From Bullera alba (lineage: Eukaryota > Basidiomycota > Tremellomycetes > Tremellales > Bulleraceae), in the NCBI GenBank assembly GCA_001600095.1, contig BCIX01000001.1:3621198-3685197 (forward strand): a DNA stretch of 64,000 nucleotides, in the 5' to 3' direction. The position numbers and the translations under genes are program-made. Below the pieces are notes generated by a model. That model did no database searches, was not told the DNA's origin, and worked only from the letters and a program-made list of their open reading frames with translations. This document shows positions 5,461 through 60,350 of this stretch, one piece after another (the first letter of the stretch is position 1; each line of letters starts with the position of its first letter).

Positions 5461-6924
5461 ATGCCTCTCGAATCGTGTATGCTTGTGTGAGTTCACAAGG
5501 TTCACCACAGAATCCAAACCCTTCGCTAACCTCAACGATCAGCTTGGACAACTCGGAGTATATGAGGTGGGTAGACATGCCAAGTATAGTCTATGGGAGG
5601 GACACTTAACATCATGATATAGAAATGGAGACTACGTTCCAACCCGATTTCAAGCTCAGGCTCAGGCCGTTAGCACAGTCTTCACCGCCAAAACCGACTC
5701 CAACCCAGAATCGGCAGTTGGCCTGATGACCATGGCAGGGAAATCGTAAGTAACAGAGGCGATCCAGCACGTAATCCAAAGACTGGCTGTCTCCTGGGGC
5801 TGTCCAGTCGTCCGCTCTAGGAGCAAACAACTGATACGAACAACCTTAGACCCTCTCTCCTGGTCACGCCCACCAACGATATCGGAAAGCTCCTCTCGGC
5901 TTTGTCGAAATCGACGATAGGCGGCACATCAGATCTCGCCACAGCTGTTCAAATAGCTCAGCTAGCGCTCAAGCACAGAGAGAATAAGAACCAGAAACAG
6001 CGTATAGTCGTCTTCGTCGGATCGCCCTTGGAGGATTCGCAGGACAGTCTAGTCAAGCTAGGCAAGAAGTTGAGGAAGAACAACGTCTTGGTGGACGTTG
6101 TGACCTTTGGAGAGGAAGGAATGGGCAATGATGAGAAGCTGAACGCGTTGATCGAGGCTGTTGGCGGGGAGTCTGCCGATTCGTGAGTAGCCCGTAGTCA
6201 TGTTAGCTTCCATTTTGGAGAGGACCCAGCTGAACGGTCGCGCCTAGGCATTTGGTTTCGGTACCCCCCGGACCTCTTCTATTGGCCGATGCGATCATCT
6301 CGTCACCTATCCTCTTCCAGGGAGGTACTGGCGGCGAGGGTGGTGCCGAGGGCATGGGTGGCTTCGCTGGTGCAGACGGAATCGACCCAAATATGGATCC
6401 AGAGTTGGCTATGGTGAGTCCAGCGAGCATCCTATCTTATGATCTCACTAACCCTCACTCAGGCTATTCGAATGTCACTTGCCGAGGCGGAACAAGCAGC
6501 CGGAAGATCTGCAGCGCCTCAAGCTGGACCATCGTCATCTACAACAGCTCAACCCGCCGGCGAGGCTTCCACCACCAATGCCGCCGCTCTTCCATCTACC
6601 CTCACCCAGCCCCTGACCAACGCGATGGACTCTGACGTCCCGATGGCCAGCGGAGATGTTCCGCCAAATCCACAGTCTGCCGCCGTGGCCACTGGTGGGG
6701 TCGGCGCAGAGCAGGATCTACTGGGCGACGATGAAGACGAAGACGAGGACGAGATGCTGAGACGAGCAATGGCTCTGTCGAGAGGGGAGAATCCGAGCGA
6801 AGATGTGACCATGGCGGATGTCGAAGGGGATGACGACGAAGAGGATGAGGAAACGGCTATAGCTAGAGCGATTGCCATGAGTCTGGAAGAGGACAAAAAG
6901 GGAGAAGACAAGGAGTCCAAGTGA
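5461..6924 (+). CDS. RPN10: 26S proteasome regulatory subunit RPN10 (S5a), ubiquitin receptor
   Basis: This is a ubiquitin receptor of the proteasome 19S particle. Exons are 5461-5486, 5543-5566, 5623-5745, 5850-6182, 6248-6413 and 6463-6924, giving 377 residues. The N-terminal von Willebrand A domain (about 1-195) contains the family signatures [33 protein letters not shown] and [10 protein letters not shown]. The C-terminal half is acidic and carries three ubiquitin-interacting-motif-like helices: [17 protein letters not shown] (about 219-235, spanning an exon junction), [15 protein letters not shown] (about 317-331) and [16 protein letters not shown] (about 351-366). Yeast Rpn10 has one such motif and human S5a two. 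The start is supported by the typical MxLESxM opening. It is transcribed divergently from actin. Confidence 0.95.
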
Positions 6925-7077
6925 TCCGTCGCCTAGATTGCGAGGGATACCCGTATGAAGCATATGCATTGATAACGCGTTGTCCAACTTGTAGTAGCAG
7001 GAAACAAAGTGATCACAGCCCAGTCTAGATATTGCCCTCCTCACGCAGCCTCTCCTCGCCTAGCTCTCTGAGGCGCC

Positions 7078-7898
7078 TTACAGCTCCTTCTTCTCGCCCA
7101 TAGCTCTGGCGTCAATCTCTCGCTGCTCCTTCTCCTCTTGTCTTCTGGCGTACTCCTGTCCGATCTGCATCAGGATGATACCAGTCGTCAACATGCCGAC
7201 AAGGGCATTTCCGGCAGCAAGCACTCTGACCGCCTCGACCTTCTCGTCAGCGGTGGGAGGGGTTTCTCGAGGTGGTGGTGGCGGCAGGATGGAGAAGGAG
7301 GTCGTCGTTTGCGAGTCTGGCACTATAGTAGTGTCAGCTTACTAAAATCACTCCCGGTCAGTGAGAGCGACTCACGGAAAGTCCTGAGGGAGTTGATGTG
7401 TATCGTCAGGTAGATGACGATGTTGGCGACATGTAGAGCTGTGCAAGCGAGACTTAGCTATGAAGTTCCTCAATGCCCCTGAAGGACCTCTGCTCACCAA
7501 TGGAAGATCCGTCAAAGAACATGGCGCTCTCGGTCCATCTATGCAGCTTTGCCAATAGAGCCACCAGTGGAAGAGCAAGAGCGACGTGGAATAGAGCCTT
7601 CACAGTGCATCAGCCAGTGCTGATCGTCCTATACTTTCGAGCTGAGCGTACCTTGACCGCTCCAGGAGCTTCGTACCACATCTCGTAGAAAGTGAAGGCG
7701 TTCTGCACCGCCTGATCCGTCACTGGCATGTATAGCAGAGGTATGTCAACCTATCATGGTGACGATCAGATTAGCATTTGGCCCTACTTCGTGAGCTGAA
7801 CCGAAGATACGTCGACTCGTACTCACTACCTGGCAGACAAACACCATGCCTAGCATGAAGGCACAAGAGCCCAACACCATGTTCTGCTGGAAACCCAT
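7078..7898 (-). CDS. SHR3-like ER membrane chaperone for amino-acid permeases
   Basis: Yeast Shr3 is an ER membrane chaperone needed for correct folding and export of amino-acid permeases. Exons on the minus strand are 7827-7898, 7652-7750, 7498-7597, 7376-7438 and 7078-7322, giving 192 residues. Seen in the product are a hydrophobic N-terminal segment, then LLYMPVTDQAVQNAFTFYE, a second hydrophobic segment ending in VALLAKLHRW, FFDGSSI, further hydrophobic segments (ALHVANIVIYLTIHINSL and GNALVGMLTTGIILMQIGQ) and a charged cytosolic tail (EYARRQEEKEQREI). The YE...AKL...LFDGaS pattern is the Shr3 family signature. The first donor has two in-frame options 3 nt apart; the better consensus GTGAGT was used. 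Confidence 0.75.
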
Positions 7899-8755
7899 CT
7901 TGAATCAAGCCGTTCAGGCCAAGTCCAATGGTTGATTGAGGTGTCTAGATTCCCAGCTCGGTGCGCTACGTGCTGGACGGTTTAAACAAGGTGTGCACTC
8001 GAGTAAGATAACGTGCAAAGTGCAGAGTCTGGCAAGAGCAAGGGAAGATACGGGCCTCTACGAGTTCCGATAAAACCGCCCATAGAGATTTTGATTCCGC
8101 ACCACCAAATGGTGTTCGTTCGCCAATTCGCGATTTGCGAGCCCGCCATCTCACTGGCTTTCCTACCCCTGCTCCTATCGATTCTCTGTTCCCTGTCGAG
8201 CGCCCCTCCCAGTCCGGCTTCTATATACGGCTCGAGTCTCATCGACGGCACAGCGTGGCGACTAATCATGGCAGTAACGATCAACGATCTCCTGGTGTGG
8301 CATCTTCCCATCACCCCTTGGCGGTCAAACGCAATCGCAGTATGACACGCCATGTCCATGTCAGAGCTCCTTGAGGGATCCTTTGCAGCAAGGTGGCCCA
8401 GTGTTTTGGCCATTATGGACGAGTATACCAAAGGAGCCACCAGTACTGACATATTGGCGGCTTGGCTGCCTGTTGCCATCAGCTTGTCTATCTCACATCT
8501 CTACTGAGCGCCAGGAATTCATCCTTGCCCTCGTTCTCGCTCTGCAGCACACCGCCGTGTCCAACTCTCAAAACCGCCAGCTGATGTCTAGTGGCCTGGA
8601 CGCCGCAAGTTCTCAACTGGCAAATCTTACACCTTTTTGATACTGAAGCGCGTTCTGTGAATGGCCAGTATCCCTAATTCAATCTTCGATTACCTGACGT
8701 TTACCTGGCACTAATCCAAAGCATCGCCGTCGGGGTCGCTGTGATCAAGCTCAGG
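7899..8755. promoter_or_regulatory. Divergent intergenic region
   Basis: These 857 bp lie between the SHR3-like start (minus) and the secreted CFEM-like gene (plus). Several 60-160 codon open frames overlap one another on both strands, but none has a recognisable family, consistent codon bias or convincing splice partners. No gene is called. Confidence 0.45.
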
Positions 8756-22465: not shown

Positions 22466-23764
22466 ATGAATGCCAATTCGCCCCTGGTGTTGCGGGCAAA
22501 GACGCCTAGCTTCGCTCATCACGGTATCGCCTTCTCCCCGTTCTTCGAAGATCGCATAGCAGTGGCATCCGGGGCGAACTTTGGTCTGGTCGGCAACGGA
22601 AGAGTGCATGTGTTCGCTCTGGGCCCAGGTGGTCTCACTCTAGGCAAATGGTGAGTCTACGGCGATTGGTCTGTCTAGTCCAGCAGCTGATAGTCGGCAG
22701 GTTCGATACGCAGGATTGCGTGTACGATGTTGCATGGAGCGAGTGTCACGAGTGAGTTAAGGGTCAACCCTATCAAATCTCTCATATGCTAGAACATGCC
22801 TGACAATGTCGCAGGAGTCAAGTCATGGCAGCCTGTGGAAACGGCTCACTGCGGCTCTTTGACCTCAACCTCGAAGTGAGTGACTTCTTGATCGACTGGT
22901 CAGCTACGCTGAAACTGCAGGGCTTAGGGCCTTCCGGTGAAGAAGTGGCATGAGCATTCTGCCGAGGTCATGTCTGTTGAGTGGAACAACCTGCAGAAAG
23001 ACAGCTTTGTGACGGCTTCTTGGGATCAGACTGTCAAGATCGTAAGATGCCGGTCTTCCCAGCAAATGGAGTTTGGTGCTAACTAGCTTTAGTGGAATGT
23101 GGAAAAGGTTACATCGCTGCTCACGCTGCCCGCCCATCAAGGTCAGATATACCGCGCGTCCTGGTGTCCCAATGTCCCGTCGACAATCGCTACTACAGGG
23201 GCAGATGGGTTCATCCATGGCTTCGATCTGCGTACGCCTACGCCCTCTCGCCCTATATGGTCCATCAGGGCCGGCGAGTCTGACGTCCTCGATTTGGACT
23301 GGAACAAATACGAGCCAACACTTATTGCATCTGCGGGCAAAGATGGTGGGATCAGAGTCTGGGATATCCGATCAGGCGGACGCGGACCCCTAGTTGAGCT
23401 TAAGGGGCATCGTCTGGCAGTACGGAAGGTCGCGTGAGTGGGCAGTGTCCTAAGCTAAATCTCTGCTCCCCTATGGCGCTTCATGCCCGCATTGACCAGC
23501 GTTGCAGATGGTCGCCGCACCATCGCGATATCCTTGCCTCCACATCATATGATATGACGTGTCGAACGTGAGTACAGCTGGCATTTGCATATTCTGCCCG
23601 AGCTGAAGCGAATATACAACAGATGGTCAACAAGCCCTCCGGCGGAACGGAACGCACACTCGCAGCACAGCGAGTTCGTCATGGGAACCGCTTGGGCGCT
23701 ATTCGACGAAGGACTTTTGGCCTCATGTGCTTGGGACCAGGAAGTCCACCTGTACAGGGGTTGA
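22466..23764 (+). CDS. PEX7: Peroxin 7, PTS2 import receptor (WD40)
   Basis: Exons 22466-22650, 22701-22751, 22815-22875, 22928-23041, 23093-23433, 23508-23567 and 23623-23764 join to 317 residues, the usual Pex7 size. It is the cytosolic receptor that carries PTS2 cargo to peroxisomes. Six or seven WD repeats are visible, for example VMAACGNGSLRLFDLN, EVMSVEWNN ... VTASWDQTVKIWN, IATTGADGFIHGFDLR, LIASAGKDGGIRVWDIR, LASTSYDMTCRTW and LASCAWDQEVHLYRG. The opening FSPFFEDRIAVASGANFGLVG block is typical of Pex7 rather than other WD40 proteins. For exon 4 the acceptor at 22927 was chosen because the earlier AG at 22920 runs into a stop. Confidence 0.92.
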
Positions 23765-24187: not shown

Positions 24188-26804
24188 ATGCAGGTCGACC
24201 CATCAGAGCTCGTTCTCACCCACTATCAAGGCGGTCTAGCGATCCTCGGCCCAGGCCTCGACAGAGCAGTATCCGCCCTGCTCCCCAAGCCATGTCCATT
24301 GGCAACACCCTACCACGTCACTCTAATCACCGCACAAGAATTCAAAGCGGCAGAACGACCGGTGGTTCCGAGCCATATTCGCTTGGATCGGATCTACGCC
24401 CTCGGACTCGGCGGCAAGCGGGACACTCGATGGATAGTGGCTGTATGGAACCATGCGGACCTATGGCGCTCAAGTCTGGGTCTACCGAAGAAGGATTACC
24501 ATATCACCGTGACTTCAAACGATATTCACGAAGTCAAGAAGGGTATATCGAGCCTGCTCCATCCGATTTCCGTCCAAGCCGTCGCCGAGCTGGGCGAGGA
24601 CGTACTGGATCATGTCATCGTTGCATCAAATGACTGCCCAGAGCTGGTGGGTACAGACTTGACTTCTATGTGACCATGCTGACGATGGATGATAGCAAAT
24701 TGCACTGTCGGAGGAGCTAATCGCCAGATATCCCACTTCGTATAAAGGCTACGTTCGGCTATCGGAGTACACGTCAGACCCCAAGCTGTCAGCTCTATGT
24801 CTCGCTCGAGCCTTCGCCCTAGAGCCAAGTATCTCCCACCTGGTGAAACGGCTCGCAAAGCTCGCAGATCAGACTCCATGGGGTCCAACGACGACCCAGG
24901 TCGAACTCGACTGTATACCTCCCGCACTACGCCCTCACCTGCTACTCCCTTGGCCACAAGAATTGGCTAACCGCATCAAGCTCCTATGGACATGTCCAAC
25001 GGCCTCCCGAGACCGACAGATACACTCCGGGTACGAGCTTCCACGATTCTTCTCATGGGTCTATTCCGGTCGCTTGGCGGGCATGTCAACACCTCGGAAC
25101 GAGAACGACATCGACGCACTGGTTGCCATGGGAATCACCCACGTCCTCACCCTCACGGCCGAGACTCCCCTCGATCCCAACTGGTTCCAGTACAAGCTCG
25201 AACACGTCTACATTCCCATTGCGAACTATGGCGCGCCGACCATCGAAGAGATGGACAACGTCTACGCCAGGATGCAAGACGGCGGGGCATGGTTGGTGCA
25301 TTGCGGGGGAGGAGTAGGCCGAGCTGGGACAATACTTGCTTGTGTGATGGCCATGCTGGGTACGGAAGGGGAGGAATCGGAAAACACAACACCGAAGTTG
25401 GATGCCGGAACAGCCATTGCGCAGCTACGCCAAATGCGACCTCGATCACTCGAATCTGCCATTCAAGAAAAGTTCGTGTCATCCTGGATCTCCCACCGCT
25501 GGAAGCAGGCGTACGTCAACACGACAGTCGAAGAACCATGTACGATACTTCAGCGACAAGGCCGGATACCGCTCAATACGCCGCTCGTCCTTTTCCTTAT
25601 AGGCAAACCAGGTTCCGGTAAATCGTGGCTTGCGTCGGCCATTTCGAAGCGCCGACCTCGAGGGAAGACCATGGTCATCAGTCAAGACGAATCTGGTTCT
25701 CGGGCGACTTGCGAGCGAGAAGCGGCTAGGTCCTATCCCGATGACACGCTTGTCATTTTCGACAGATGCAACCCACTCCCTGCCGATCGCAAAACCTGGT
25801 TGGAACTATTTTCTCGACAAAGTGTGGCCGTGTACTTCGACTATTCGGGCGAATTGTGTAGGAAACGGATGAACAATCGCCTCGATCATCCCACCCTTCG
25901 AGCCGGTAGGGGCGGAAACGCATTGGAGCAGTTCGAACGGGAGATGACCGCACCAACATTGGATGAAGGGTTTCAAGCCATTTTGACGATTGGATCATTC
26001 AGTGCATCTAGCTCTGCGATCCAGCTCCTCACCTCGGATCCACCTTTGCTCAAGTTTCCAAGAACCCCTCACCTCATCAACCTCGGTGCGGTAACTTCCG
26101 ACGACGTGGTCACCGACGTCTTTGGCTCTTCCGCACCTGCGTCAGGATCATCGGGCGGAGGCGAGATCCAGGGCCGACTTACGCTTGAAGAGAAGATTGA
26201 TGGAGCCAACATGGGCATATCACTGGATTGGAACAGAGTTCTCCGTGTCCAGAACAGGAGTCATTGGGTGTCTTCGGCGAGTCAAGCTCAGTTCAAGAAA
26301 CTGGACGACTGGATCGAGCGACATTCCACCATTCTGCACAATCTCCTCGATAAGGATCCCGAATACCCTGAACGATACATACTCTACGGTGAATGGGTCT
26401 CAACCAAGCATTCCATTCGATACACTGCTCTGCTTGACCTGTTCATCGCTTTCGACCTGTACGACCGACTCTCGGCCACATTCCTCTCCCGGCGGCTACT
26501 CACCCGCGCGCTCGAAGCCGCATCACGAGCCGCCAGTACTGGGACAGATGGCGATCGTCTGGTCATACACCAAGTACCCCTTATCAATGAGACCGAGTGT
26601 GTTACAAGGGAGGAGCTCTTGACGGTCTTGAAGGGCAAAGGTCAATGGACGGACGAGAGGCTCGAAGGTGTGTATGTCCGTTGGGAGGATGACAGGAGAG
26701 AACAGACGATCAGAAGAGGTAAAATCGTCAGAGGCGATTTCATAGCTGGTAATGAGCACTGGAGCAAAGGACATCTCACGCCAAACGTCCTGAAGCCTGA
26801 CTAA
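24188..26804 (+). CDS. Four-domain RNA end-repair-like enzyme: 2H phosphoesterase, DSP-like phosphatase, P-loop kinase, Rnl2-type RNA ligase
   Basis: Exons are 24188-24646 and 24696-26804 (855 residues); the intron GTGGGT...GATAG joins in phase. Domains in order: (1) about 1-115, two HxT motifs, PYHVTL (His43) and DYHITV (His105), as in 2H cyclic phosphodiesterases; (2) about 120-215, helical, TPR-like; (3) about 260-425, dual-specificity-phosphatase fold with the CX5R loop HCGGGVGRAGT (Cys356, Arg362); (4) about 445-600, P-loop kinase with GKPGSGKS (456-463) and VIFDRCNP; (5) about 640-835, nucleotidyltransferase ligase with motif I EKIDGANMG (Lys653), YGEW, FIAFDLYD, EGVYVRW and RRGKIVRGDF. 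Motif spacing is that of T4 Rnl2-type ligases. These activities match end healing (2',3'-cyclic phosphate opening, 5' phosphorylation) and sealing, but the order and ligase type differ from Trl1 (ligase-kinase-CPD). The biological substrate is unknown. No targeting peptide is seen. Confidence 0.8.
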
Positions 26805-55484: not shown

Positions 55485-57515
55485 GAGACTCAAAGTATAA
55501 AACAGATCGCATATAGACGCTGTACAGCCAGCATGTTGCCACATGTATCATGTATCACCACCGACGCCATTCGTTCATGCGCCGAGGACGTAGCATGCTC
55601 TGGCTGCCTGGCATGACTGGACCTACTGGACTGCGCCTGGCTGAGCAGGGCCGAGCGGATTGGCGAGATTTGAGTTTGCACTAACTCGTACCTGATCGAC
55701 AACGCTAAGCACGGACGGGATCAAATGTCAATTAGGCAAAACCCTGCAAAACCCGAACGGCCGGCGAAAGTCCAAATCCCGCCACCCGGACGGTCCCTAG
55801 CCGGGGCATGTGAACAATCGAGATTCTGCGCCGGAAGAGGGAAGTGGCGCAAGAGGCGCTGAAGAACCCGGGTCGCTGGCAACAAGAACAATGACACAAT
55901 CACAGCTTCAAGCTCCTTCCAGCATTCAGCAACTTCCGTCGAGAAGAGCATACATCAAAGTCCCTCACTCGTCATGGAAGGAGGCTCTGCCGATGTGTAA
56001 ATCTGCCAAGATGGAGCCATTAGTCACCTGAACTGATCGGCGGTTCCAGTGCGATGGTCAAAGATCTCGCTGACACTGGCTGACACTTAATCAGATTACA
56101 GCGGACGATGCTCTATGACGCTGCTTAGTGAACGTCTCGGACTCGATGATAGCTACAGGTGCCGGGTACATTGCTCGAAACATCGTCATGTCCGGAAGAA
56201 CAACACGGTTCATCGGAGTTTGTGGCTTGCCGGGCGCGCCGTGGCGTTACCATTGCCGATGTGGGCGGTACCCCTCGACTGCAAATAATTGCCTAACGCG
56301 ACCGGTATCTTGGAAACGCCTCCGAAGCCTTAAAAATTCACGGTTCTTTACGGCTCATTGAGTCATGTCATTCTTCTCGATCTCTCGTCAACCTCGCGTT
56401 GCTTCCAAGCGACGCGCAGGTAGTCTGGACTTTCCTGGGCACGAAACTTACCCAGAACGGTACAATTCCTTGTTGACACAGGTTGACAACCCGAGCGTGA
56501 CTCACTGATCACTGAAATGCTGCTAACATGCAGATCTTTGTCTCGTACCTGGCTACCCAATCTCCTCTTTCACCGCATCCTCTATTGCCTTGTCAGCTGT
56601 ATAGAGTTCCCAAAACGGCAACCTAGATCGCCTTCTGGGATTGTCTACGACCTCTCCTACGCCCCCGACCAACGTGAGGCTCGTCGTCAGGCCTCACATG
56701 TCCTGCGCCCCCGCCCTCGACCACACACTCCTTCGTCCACTACCGCTTTCTCAGGCTGCTTTCGCTCAGTAAAGCCCTGCACGCCCTCCCTCAGCCCCTC
56801 TCAGCCCAGACGCACAATCTTGACCAAGGCGCATCCGGTCCTGGGCCCAACGCCCAACGTCTCCCAACGTTGAGCATACCGCCCATTGTTCGCCGACCTC
56901 TGCCCCACCCTCGCCCACGCCGAACGATCGGCCTGGCGTCGGAAGCAGGTGTGGCACTGGAACGGGCGTCGTGGCTTGACATCGCCGATTGTACCAATAT
57001 AGGAAATCTTCGATCAAACGTGAGTCATTCTTGCAAGATCTTCTTCTTCTATCGTACGCCTCTTGAGCGGCTACGAACTTTAGCCATCGCAGCCATCGCA
57101 GCCACCACCACCACAAACTCCGCTCGATGTCTTCCATATCGTCATCAGACTTTTTGGACCGCATGTTTCTCGAGCTCGTCGATCTCTTCTCGAGTCTTGA
57201 GACAGGTTATAAAGGCCTCATGCAACTCCTCTCTCTCCCTCTTTCTTCGTCTCTATTCCATTGCTCGCTAGTCTCAAGTCTCTGTCTCGTTCCCAGACCG
57301 CTTCTTTCCAACGACTCACCAAAGTCACTGTAGCCTTACTCCCCCTTCTTCAACAACAAAGCTGGTCTTTGTCAACAACACTTCTTTTCCATAACGACTA
57401 TCCTCCTATAATACTCTTCACTCCGCATAATCTCTCGCTTGGCAACAGCATTTAGAACAGCACTCAGCACGACACACCACTTAATTATCACAAAGCACAA
57501 ATCAACTCTATCAAC
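55485..57515. promoter_or_regulatory. 2-kb gene-free region ahead of the DUF1996-WSC gene
   Basis: This is the longest non-coding stretch in the window. Open frames here are short, overlap on both strands and lack family likeness. The 3' 500 bases are strongly pyrimidine-rich (for example 57220-57360), like leaders of highly expressed fungal genes. A TATAAA lies at 57208-57213. It probably contains an extended promoter and a 5' UTR of up to about 270 nt. Confidence 0.45.
57208..57213 (+). promoter_or_regulatory. TATA box candidate of the DUF1996-WSC gene
   Basis: TATAAA lies in the context GGTTATAAAGG, 303 bp upstream of the ATG at 57516 and just before the pyrimidine-rich leader. Confidence 0.4.
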
Positions 57516-60350
57516 ATGCAGCTTCAACTTCTAGCGGGACTGCTCCCCTTCCTGGCCTCGGCTCAGGCTTTCTTCATCCTCTCCCACCGAACTCTACAGA
57601 CGACCCGTCTTGACCCGTGAGTGTCTTGTGCAGCAACACTCGTACCAATACTGACGGCTGCCTATAGCATCGTCAACCCCGGTGTCGTCTCTGGCCATGT
57701 CCACTCCATCGTCGGTGGCAGCAACTTCGACAAGTCGATGACCTACGAGTCCACACAGGCATCCGGTTGCACTACCGCGGCCGTCAGTGTCGACAAGTCC
57801 AACTACTGGACACCTCAGCTCTACTACTACGACCCCAAAGCCACAACCTACGAAGCGATCCCCATCGACGTGGTCAACACCTACTACCTCCCTCGAGCCG
57901 GTAAAGACGGCAAGGTCCAGGCGTTCCCCGACGGTCTGCGAATGATCTCCGGCAGCCCCTTCCGAAGGGATTACAACTCTGCTCGACCAGACGACAACGC
58001 CGTGAGCTATGTCTGTCTCGACTACGCCGGTGGTCACAAAGGCGACCCTGAGTGGGCTCAGCGAAACAGCTTCTTCAACCACAACTGTCCAAACGGTATG
58101 CGAGCCCAGGTCTTCTTCCGATCTTGTTGGGACGGTGTCAACCTCGACTCGGCCGATCACATGTCACACATGGCCTGGCCATCTGGTGGTGTCGATGGTG
58201 GTGAATGCCCAAAGTCCCACCCCGTCCGACTGGTCTCCCTGTTCTACGAGTTCATCTACCGAGTTCAGGACTTCCCCCACAACGGCGCCGCTGGTCCCAC
58301 CTGGGTCTTCGCCAACGGTGACACCACTGGTTACGGTATGCACGGTGACTTCTTGAACGGTTGGCCCGCGTACAACAACGGTACCAACGTCCTCCAACAA
58401 GCCATCGACGGATGCAACCAGAACAACGGTGTCGGTGGTGTCCTCGAGAACTGTCCTCCATTCGTTCCCTTCCTCAACTCGGATGCTGCCTACGGATGTC
58501 AACCTCAGAACTTCTATGTCAACGAGGATGTTGGTTTCAACAGCCCACTGAAGGCTCTGCCCGGTAACAACCCCATCTGGATCGGTGCCGGTCCCAAACC
58601 ATCTTTGGCCAACTACACCGAGGGCAACACGACATACACCAACTTCAAGTCTGTCATCCCCGACGGCTACGACGAGGTTGGTTGTGTCGCCGAGCCATCC
58701 AGTGGTCGAGCTCTTGGTCTGCAGTCCTTCACCGCCGCCAACATGACCCGTGCCGCCTGTGTCAACTTCTGTCAGTCCTTCGGCCTCCCCCTTGCTGGTA
58801 TCGAGTACGGATCCGAGTGCTACTGCGACAAGGCCATGAGGAACGGTGCTTCCAACACTACCCTCCTGTCCGCCTACGAGTGTGGTTCCAAATGCTCCGG
58901 CAACAGCTACGAGACCTGTGGTGGTTCGAGGACTCTCAGTCTGTACAACAACCCCGACCTCTACGCCACCAAGCCTCTTCCTGTTGGTTGGTCCGCGACT
59001 GGTTGTTACAAGGAGGCTTCCGGATCCAGGGCCCTCAAGGGATACTCGTTCTCCGGCAACACGATGACTCAAGAGTCTTGCATGGCCGCTTGTCAGACTC
59101 GAAACTTCACCTACGCCGGTGTCGAGTACGGACGAGAATGCTACTGCTCCAACACCCTCGGCGGTCCTGGTGCTGCCGACGACGCCGACTGCTCGATGCC
59201 ATGTGCCGCCGACGGTAACTCGCAGTGTGGTGGACCATCGAGACTCAACGTTTTCACCTTCGCCAGCAGTGCGCCAGTCACCCCCAGTGCCAGCATCAGC
59301 CCGAGTGCCAGTGCCAGTGCCAGCGCCAGCCCCAAGGTCAGCGTCGCCAGCTCGATCAGCTCAAGCGCCGCCAAGTCGTCTGCTTCGAGCGTCTCGGCCT
59401 CCGCCTCTTCGGTCTCTTCGGTCAGGAGCAGTGCGGTCGCTTCGTCTTCGACCTCTGCCTCTTCCGCAGTCGCCCCCTCCAGCTCGGCTGCCAGGTCTTC
59501 GTCGTCTTCGTCTTCGTCTGCTTCGTCGTCCGCCGCCGCCAGCTCGACTGTCAGCTCTGCCTCGCGAGCCTCGTCGACCACGATCGCTTCGTCGGCCGCC
59601 CCAAGCTCCTCCGCTGTTGTCAGCTCGACTGCCTCGTCTGCTTCGTCAGCCGCCGCCTCGCCGTCAGCTTTGGTGCTACCCGCCGGTTGGGCCTCCAAGG
59701 GATGTTACACCGAGGCCACCACTGCTCGAGCTCTCGCTTCGTTCACCTACGCCGACCCATCTGTCACCGTGACCAAGTGTCTGTCTCTCTGCCAGCAGAA
59801 CGGCTTCAAGCTCTGTGGTGTCGAGTACGGTTCCGAATGCTACGGTGCCAACATCCTCTCCACTGGAAGCACCCTCGCCGCTGCCACCGAGTGCGCCCTT
59901 CCATGTGCCGGTGACAAGTCCCAGACTTGTGGTGGTTACTCGAAACTCAACCTTTACGAATACACCTCCTCCGACCCGGCCCCAGTCAACCCCCTGCCAG
60001 CTGGATGGAGTGCCGAGGGATGTTTCACCGAGCTCAAGAACGCCCGAGCCATCGTCGGCTTCTACGTCTCTTCGACCAAGATGACCCCAGCTCTTTGCGT
60101 CAAGACTTGCGCTCAAAAGGGTTACGCCGTCGCCGGTGTCGAGTACTTCAGCCAGTGCTTCTGTGGTCCTTCCTTCTCCTCCCTCTCGACCAAGGTTGCC
60201 GATGGTGACTGCTCTGCCCCTTGTACCGGTGACAAGACTCAACAGTGCGGTGGTTCAAGCAGGCTCAACGTCTTCACCCTCGACTCGGCCTCGGTCACCG
60301 TTCCCTCGAAACGATCCATCGCCGGTCGTAGGGGTATCCGATACGACTAA
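57516..60350 (+). CDS. Secreted DUF1996 protein with four WSC domains and a Ser-rich linker
   Basis: Exons 57516-57616 and 57668-60350 give 927 residues. The signal peptide is LLAGLLPFLASAQA. The DUF1996 domain covers about 22-300 (VNPGVVSGHVHSIVGGSNF, MISGSPFRRD, LDSADHMSHMAWP). Four WSC carbohydrate-binding modules follow at about 365-464, 470-565, 703-798 and 809-908, each with GCY/GCF ... C...C ... GVEYGxECYC ... C...C ... TCGG. WSC 2 and 3 are separated by about 130 residues of nearly pure Ser/Ala, probably O-mannosylated. The C-terminus is basic (PSKRSIAGRRGIRYD), with no GPI or membrane segment. Codon use is extremely C-biased, like actin, implying very high expression. A secreted wall-associated glycan-binding protein is likely. 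Confidence 0.9.

Follow-up and report, generated by a model that had tools for sequence, protein, structure and literature searches.

Gene 24188–26804, on the + strand of the window (the whole 64,000-nt stretch of DNA analysed here), raises the question of whether one fungal polypeptide can carry everything needed to heal and seal broken RNA, and what such an enzyme would be for in a genome that also encodes Trl1. We consider it quite probable that the 855-aa product is a complete healing-and-sealing enzyme of the Swiss Army Knife (SAK) type, acting on RNA with 2′,3′-cyclic-phosphate and 5′-OH ends, and that it serves repair rather than constitutive tRNA splicing.

Gene structure and domains

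The predicted gene model comprises two exons, and all features of the gene lie on the + strand. Exon 1 (24188–24646) encodes residues 1–153, ends in phase 0 and carries the 2H phosphoesterase domain. Exon 2 (24696–26804) encodes residues 154–855 plus the stop and matches its genome at this one place, the gene being present in one copy in 19.4 Mb (7 contigs). The two are joined by a phase-0 intron of 49 nt (24647–24695) with a GTGGGT donor, a CTGAC branch-like site and a TAG acceptor. A first-pass annotation had placed the whole protein in one open frame. This was wrong, as there are two frames with stops between them: the exon-1 frame meets a stop at 24673 and the exon-2 frame starts right after TGATAG (24690–24695). 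Such a layout would also fit two adjacent genes, one for a short 2H protein and the other for a protein with phosphatase, kinase and ligase. However, we regard this as very improbable indeed: the phosphatase match starts at exon-2 residue 116, upstream of the earliest in-frame ATG in that exon (residue 130; an in-frame GTG occurs earlier, at 24843), splice signals sit exactly at the exon junction, and at a related locus, L098, a single unbroken frame spans 2H, phosphatase and kinase. One intron-like element alone is weak evidence, because the window is richer in such elements than shuffled sequence (in their looser form 62 on the + strand and 47 on the other strand, against 10–29 in 20 Markov-shuffled copies). 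A single two-exon gene is therefore supported by the start of the phosphatase domain ahead of the first exon-2 ATG, by the opening of exon 2 directly after two stops and by the uninterrupted frame of L098. As to the surroundings, an exon of a WD40 protein lies upstream of the gene (23099–23437), and window positions 56001–60000 show a strong C-over-G skew (-0.24 and -0.16) with GC of up to 0.60, the rest of the window being fairly even.

The order 2H, DSP-type phosphatase, P-loop kinase and Rnl2-clade ligase, previously proposed from motifs, was borne out, with each Pfam match above its curated cut-off, and the motif positions given for the spliced protein proved correct. The 2H phosphoesterase domain (2H-SAK, PF22547, 4.5e-15, Pfam match at 24311–24529) scored 56.5 bits against a cut-off of 27 over profile positions 37–124 of 124, and contains the HxT motifs HVT (residues 43–45, 24314–24322) and HIT (residues 105–107, 24500–24508). 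A PDB sequence search with this domain returned no match, and the exon-1 structure model, built from a two-row alignment, has a pLDDT of 34.6. Exon 2 opens with a helical linker (24696–24872) of four predicted helices in the AlphaFold2 model (block means of pLDDT 47–70); a Pfam search with the linker between 2H and phosphatase found no family, and our impression from the model is of a TPR-like arrangement. The DSP/PTP-type phosphatase (PTP-SAK, 25041–25478) matched PF22784 at 3.3e-49 (167.3 bits, cut-off 27) over model positions 1–153 of 153, i.e. the whole model, and contains a CX5R loop (HC356GGGVGR362; Cys356 at 25302–25304).

The P-loop polynucleotide 5′-kinase domain (25587–25991), recognised by phmmer and by Pfam AAA_33 (4.5e-7, 30.7 bits, cut-off 27), carries a Walker A motif at residues 456–463 (25602–25625) and an SQD motif at 25680–25688. 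Among solved structures, phmmer placed it nearest to 9d8a, a Rhizopus azygosporus kinase (6.8e-17), and 9drz, a P-loop protein (2.4e-15); mammalian PNKP was weakly similar (0.001), and TIGR01663 matched at 1.4e-7 with 30.3 bits, far under that model's cut-off of 502.8. The chain ends with an Rnl2-clade RNA ligase (nucleotidyltransferase) domain (26046–26801), supported by PF09414 (RNA_ligase, 8.4e-26, 91.6 bits, cut-off 27), by our ligase alignment (A1) and by a structure model with fold search. It contains EK653IDGAN, with the nucleotidyl lysine position Lys653 at 26193–26195, LYGEW (716), FIAFDLYD (736), EGVYVR (810) and RGKIVR (827), the positions previously given being right here too. Thus nucleotidyltransferase motifs I, III, IIIa, IV and V occur together with an Rnl2-like fold. 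The ligase is the sole reliable part of the exon-2 AlphaFold2 model, and its nearest structures are T4 Rnl2 and a Naegleria ligase that seals nicks, in line with the C-terminal nucleotidyltransferase that the first-pass annotation had put up for checking.

Phosphatase residues and the predicted repair pathway

A closer inspection of the phosphatase revealed an unusual residue. The phmmer matches were 25xa (3.9e-17) and DUSP23/VHZ (3.7e-15), and in the alignment to VHZ (4erc, positions counted from the printed alignment) Asn330 (25224–25226) stands opposite Asp65 and Glu406 (25452–25454) opposite Glu134. The ungapped 25xa alignment likewise pairs an Asp with Asn330, so the general-acid Asp in the WPD-like loop of canonical DSP/PTP phosphatases is replaced by Asn here. 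In L098 an Asp is seen by eye near the loop-acid place, but MAFFT leaves it unpaired with Asn330 and it was not counted. Structure searches with the exon-2 model added VHZ 4erc as a single supporting Foldseek row (E 1.6e-3), the phosphatase and kinase parts being poorly modelled; VIA-align listed no rows for these two parts, where pLDDT is under 50. One reading of Asn330 is that the phosphatase spares RNA phosphates altogether, being inactive, regulatory or directed at a small molecule or protein, and that the 2H domain leaves a 2′-phosphate, 3′-OH end which the ligase accepts, as in Trl1. We hold this to be unlikely, since Cys356, Arg362 and Glu406 are intact and since, according to PMC9038691, Glu134 of VHZ takes precedence over Asp65 in the role of general acid. 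The domain may work through Glu406 as an alternative acid, or the phosphatase step may be weak.

From the domains and residues observed we predict activities, an order of steps, a substrate and a biological role. The 2H domain would convert the 2′,3′-cyclic phosphate to a phosphomonoester, and the DSP domain would take that phosphate off through a Cys356 phosphoenzyme to give a 2′,3′-diol. The P-loop kinase would place a phosphate on the 5′-OH, and the ligase, charged as Lys653-AMP, would activate the 5′ end as AppRNA and seal it to the 3′-OH. The Trl1 route leaves a 2′-phosphate at the junction, which Tpt1 removes. The product of the predicted SAK route would have no 2′-phosphate and, unlike that of Trl1, would not need Tpt1. 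The damage mended in this way would be RNA broken by stress or by ribonuclease toxins. In PMC7824862, 2H, kinase and ATP-dependent ligase together form a general RNA repair scheme.

In the same genome, exon-by-exon matches place the ligase, kinase and CPD parts of Trl1 collinearly on the minus strand at C1:2840818–2843475, and Tpt1 lies on C6. RtcB had no match in the genome, using a model that matched 9 of 14 control genomes. Co-existence with Trl1, which the first-pass annotation had posed as a question, is thus found, and with Trl1 and Tpt1 present and RtcB without a match the window protein comes on top of the ligation used in tRNA splicing and does not stand in for it: it is a predicted repair enzyme additional to the Trl1 route. 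Its domains would cover every chemical step of tRNA exon ligation, which could fit a second ligase for tRNA splicing or HAC1-type mRNA splicing, sharing or taking over the work of Trl1. However, the same genome has both Tpt1 and a Trl1 with its three parts in the usual order, and we judge such a role to be quite a bit less than likely, at the level of an outside chance. For the same reason repair rather than constitutive tRNA splicing is the likely job, and it is probably repair after ribonuclease damage. Of the earlier reading, the complete predicted toolkit with reversed order and extra phosphatase stands on Pfam matches and residues and its repair use is favoured, whilst its alternative splicing route is disfavoured by Trl1 and Tpt1 in the genome.

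Relatives of the ligase and their gene neighbourhoods

Alignment A1 located relatives of the ligase in genome and viral contigs; single-sequence queries with exon 2 yielded none in either. The most informative locus is L098 (IMGVR_UViG_3300024981_000137, 5932–8380), which carries a 565-aa 2H-DSP-kinase gene and, convergent and overlapping with it, a 257-aa ligase gene. It has the same four parts as the window protein (2H-SAK, DSP, P-loop kinase and ligase), as two adjacent convergent genes where the window has one fused gene, and the two ligases are 41–42% identical over 219 columns. Because the four domains recur in L098 as adjacent genes, we argue that they work together. Among the 123 loci compared, L098 alone showed a match at 1e-3 to the 2H, the phosphatase or the window-type kinase part. 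Its neighbours are an M13 peptidase, an IMPDH and a methyltransferase, and the contig is catalogued as viral in IMG/VR, which is a label only; a capsid search of the contig gave no match, nor did any control match. Scans of viral contigs with the L098 protein, with alignments A2 and A3 and with the L098 ligase recovered only the L098 contig again and L139, which has a kinase match alone (E 1e-3 or better).

The bacterial ligases keep other company. The genome loci examined are the best 80 of 550 confirmed, with several near-copies (Lentzea) and one locus, L074, that repeats plasmid locus L012, and the rates are accordingly biased: HEC-03B and HEC-03A both lie upstream of the ligase on the same strand in 50/80, HEC-03B only in 8/80, HEC-03A only in 7/80 and neither in 15/80. 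Examples of the pair with a ligase behind it are L012–L014 and L018. Some contigs among these last 15 stop close upstream (L079 after 223 nt, L081 after 585 nt). HEC-03A and HEC-03B are PADLOC candidate defence families, identified by model match in L012 and L013 and, for the remaining loci, through tblastn searches with the L013 proteins as queries. HEC-03B is an AAA/DUF3696 ATPase. HEC-03A has invariant DTN, D45, D113-R114, F116 and D134 in 20 rows, with the same acidic positions in 61/61, and judged by these conserved acidic residues only it looks like a PIN nuclease; neither of two such proteins submitted to Pfam was matched, and a profile run against the PDB returned only a designed TIM barrel (E 0.067). 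The combination of HEC-03B, HEC-03A and ligase suggests, at the level of sequence, a cut-and-reseal RNA system. PADLOC had no model match for the one ligase tried (L012) and, against the window protein, gave a single weak match (mad8, 0.0063). HEC-03 together with a ligase was not found among the literature matches listed, which is not proof of absence.

In 6 of the best 80 of 550 loci (L022, L071, L076, L085, L096 and L097), a rate with the same bias, the ligase is followed downstream by an HD-domain/P-loop-kinase gene, and three further loci (L016, L017 and L116) share this arrangement. That bacterial and phage-contig relatives of the ligase stand beside other end-healing genes speaks for the repair reading of the fungal protein. 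Pfam, run on L022 only, recognised both HD (6.6e-8) and AAA_33 (6.8e-25) in this gene, and in the neighbour at L113 the HD part was found and the kinase was not. At L022:6001–7922 a Myxococcales ligase lies directly 5′ of such a gene, another healing-and-sealing pair.

Two unrooted trees place the fungal ligase within this set. In a tree of 42 hand-picked rows, omitting the long-branch row L125, the window and L098 ligases are sisters (98/91) and are joined by the Myxococcales ligase of L022 (98/89). A 100/100 branch has these three, all 21 HEC-03 rows and 7 others on one side, and 7 ligases linked to an HD-kinase and 4 from viral contigs on the other. The HEC-03 label does not form one clade in this tree, requiring 7 changes, at least 5 of them forced, and is interspersed with loci that showed no HEC-03 gene. 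A quick tree of 71 rows, drawn from the window and the 123 loci and omitting about half of the genome loci, L012–L015 and matches of under 170 query residues, again groups the window with L098 (SH-aLRT 93), then with L022 (86) and then with HEC-03 rows (85).

Phages and plasmids were also searched. Among the phage matches listed (20 of 131 records) were matches to the ligase part and one to the kinase part (phage G, 6e-3), and the L098 2H-phosphatase-kinase protein found no match in phages. Plasmid ligase matches reached 1e-22 among those listed (20 of 61 records), and the phosphatase part alone matches ordinary plasmid phosphatases in 46 records, 3e-7 being the best among the matches listed (20 of 46). 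None of the matches listed (20 of 131 phage and 20 of 61 plasmid records) spans 80% of exon 2, and the idea that the fungal gene as a whole came from a phage or plasmid was rejected.

Taken together, these data allow a bolder proposal, about which we have more doubt than belief. The fungal enzyme and its split, virus-labelled counterpart may come from one RNA-conflict toolkit, its ligase taken from the bacterial lineage to which a candidate phage-defence operon (with ATPase, PIN-like nuclease and ligase genes) also belongs. On this view the fungus would possess a dedicated RNA repair enzyme of an immunity type, countering ribonuclease attack whether it comes from viruses, toxins or competitors. 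Its phosphatase, VHZ-like and with the general acid switched, would yield clean ends without Tpt1.

Comparison with known repair systems

On its sequence the 855-aa protein joins a group of RNA repair proteins whose design Pfam has already catalogued under the names '2H-SAK', 'PTP-SAK' and 'Swiss Army Knife'. Both SAK-named models match it above cut-off, and the chain holds a P-loop kinase and an RNA ligase as well. SAK RNA repair proteins were reportedly described by Burroughs and Aravind in 2016. That paper, doi 10.1093/nar/gkw722, stands in the reference list of PMC9931718. A HAD_SAK_1 companion was also considered; the genome search gave no match, the controls were silent too, and the idea was dropped. 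A fungal 2H-DSP-kinase-ligase protein was not found among the literature matches listed, which is not proof of absence. What is new here is the co-existence with Trl1 and Tpt1, the division of the set between two genes on a virus-labelled contig, the conflict-type genes beside the ligase's kin and the Asn at the phosphatase loop acid.

Like fungal Trl1, the window protein has ligase, kinase and cyclic phosphodiesterase functions, as predicted, on one chain. However, the domain order is reversed, there is an extra phosphatase, and the ligase belongs to PF09414, a different family from the PF09511 ligase of Trl1; PF09511, PF08302 and PF08303, which match at the Trl1 locus on C1, are all absent from its Pfam table up to E 1, and it is not a Trl1. 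Should the predicted activities be real, there would be two separate healing-and-sealing routes in the fungus, Trl1, which leaves a 2′-phosphate for Tpt1, and SAK, which should leave none. The genetic question would then be which RNA damage the second route mends, and whether other organisms inflict it.

With the Rnl2-type ligases of Naegleria gruberi and T4 the window ligase shares 15% and 14% identity, respectively. T4 Rnl2 has a C-terminal domain that the window protein lacks: the 2hvq alignment ends at model residue 685 of 702 (17 residues left) and at T4 residue 234 of the 317-residue chain, and since only 13–18 residues follow the last aligned residue there is no room for such a domain. 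The bacterial single-domain ligases, by comparison, align with the window ligase nearly end to end and are 29–38% identical in their best segments (best 80 of 550 loci, with an alignment view of five plasmid examples). They are separate genes, partnered by an ATPase and a small PIN-like protein or by an HD-kinase, whereas the window ligase is combined with 2H and DSP domains. The fused fungal gene, the split set of L098 and the bacterial operons represent three natural solutions for pairing kindred sealing enzymes with healing or cutting partners of different kinds, and comparing them helps to show how such kits are put together.
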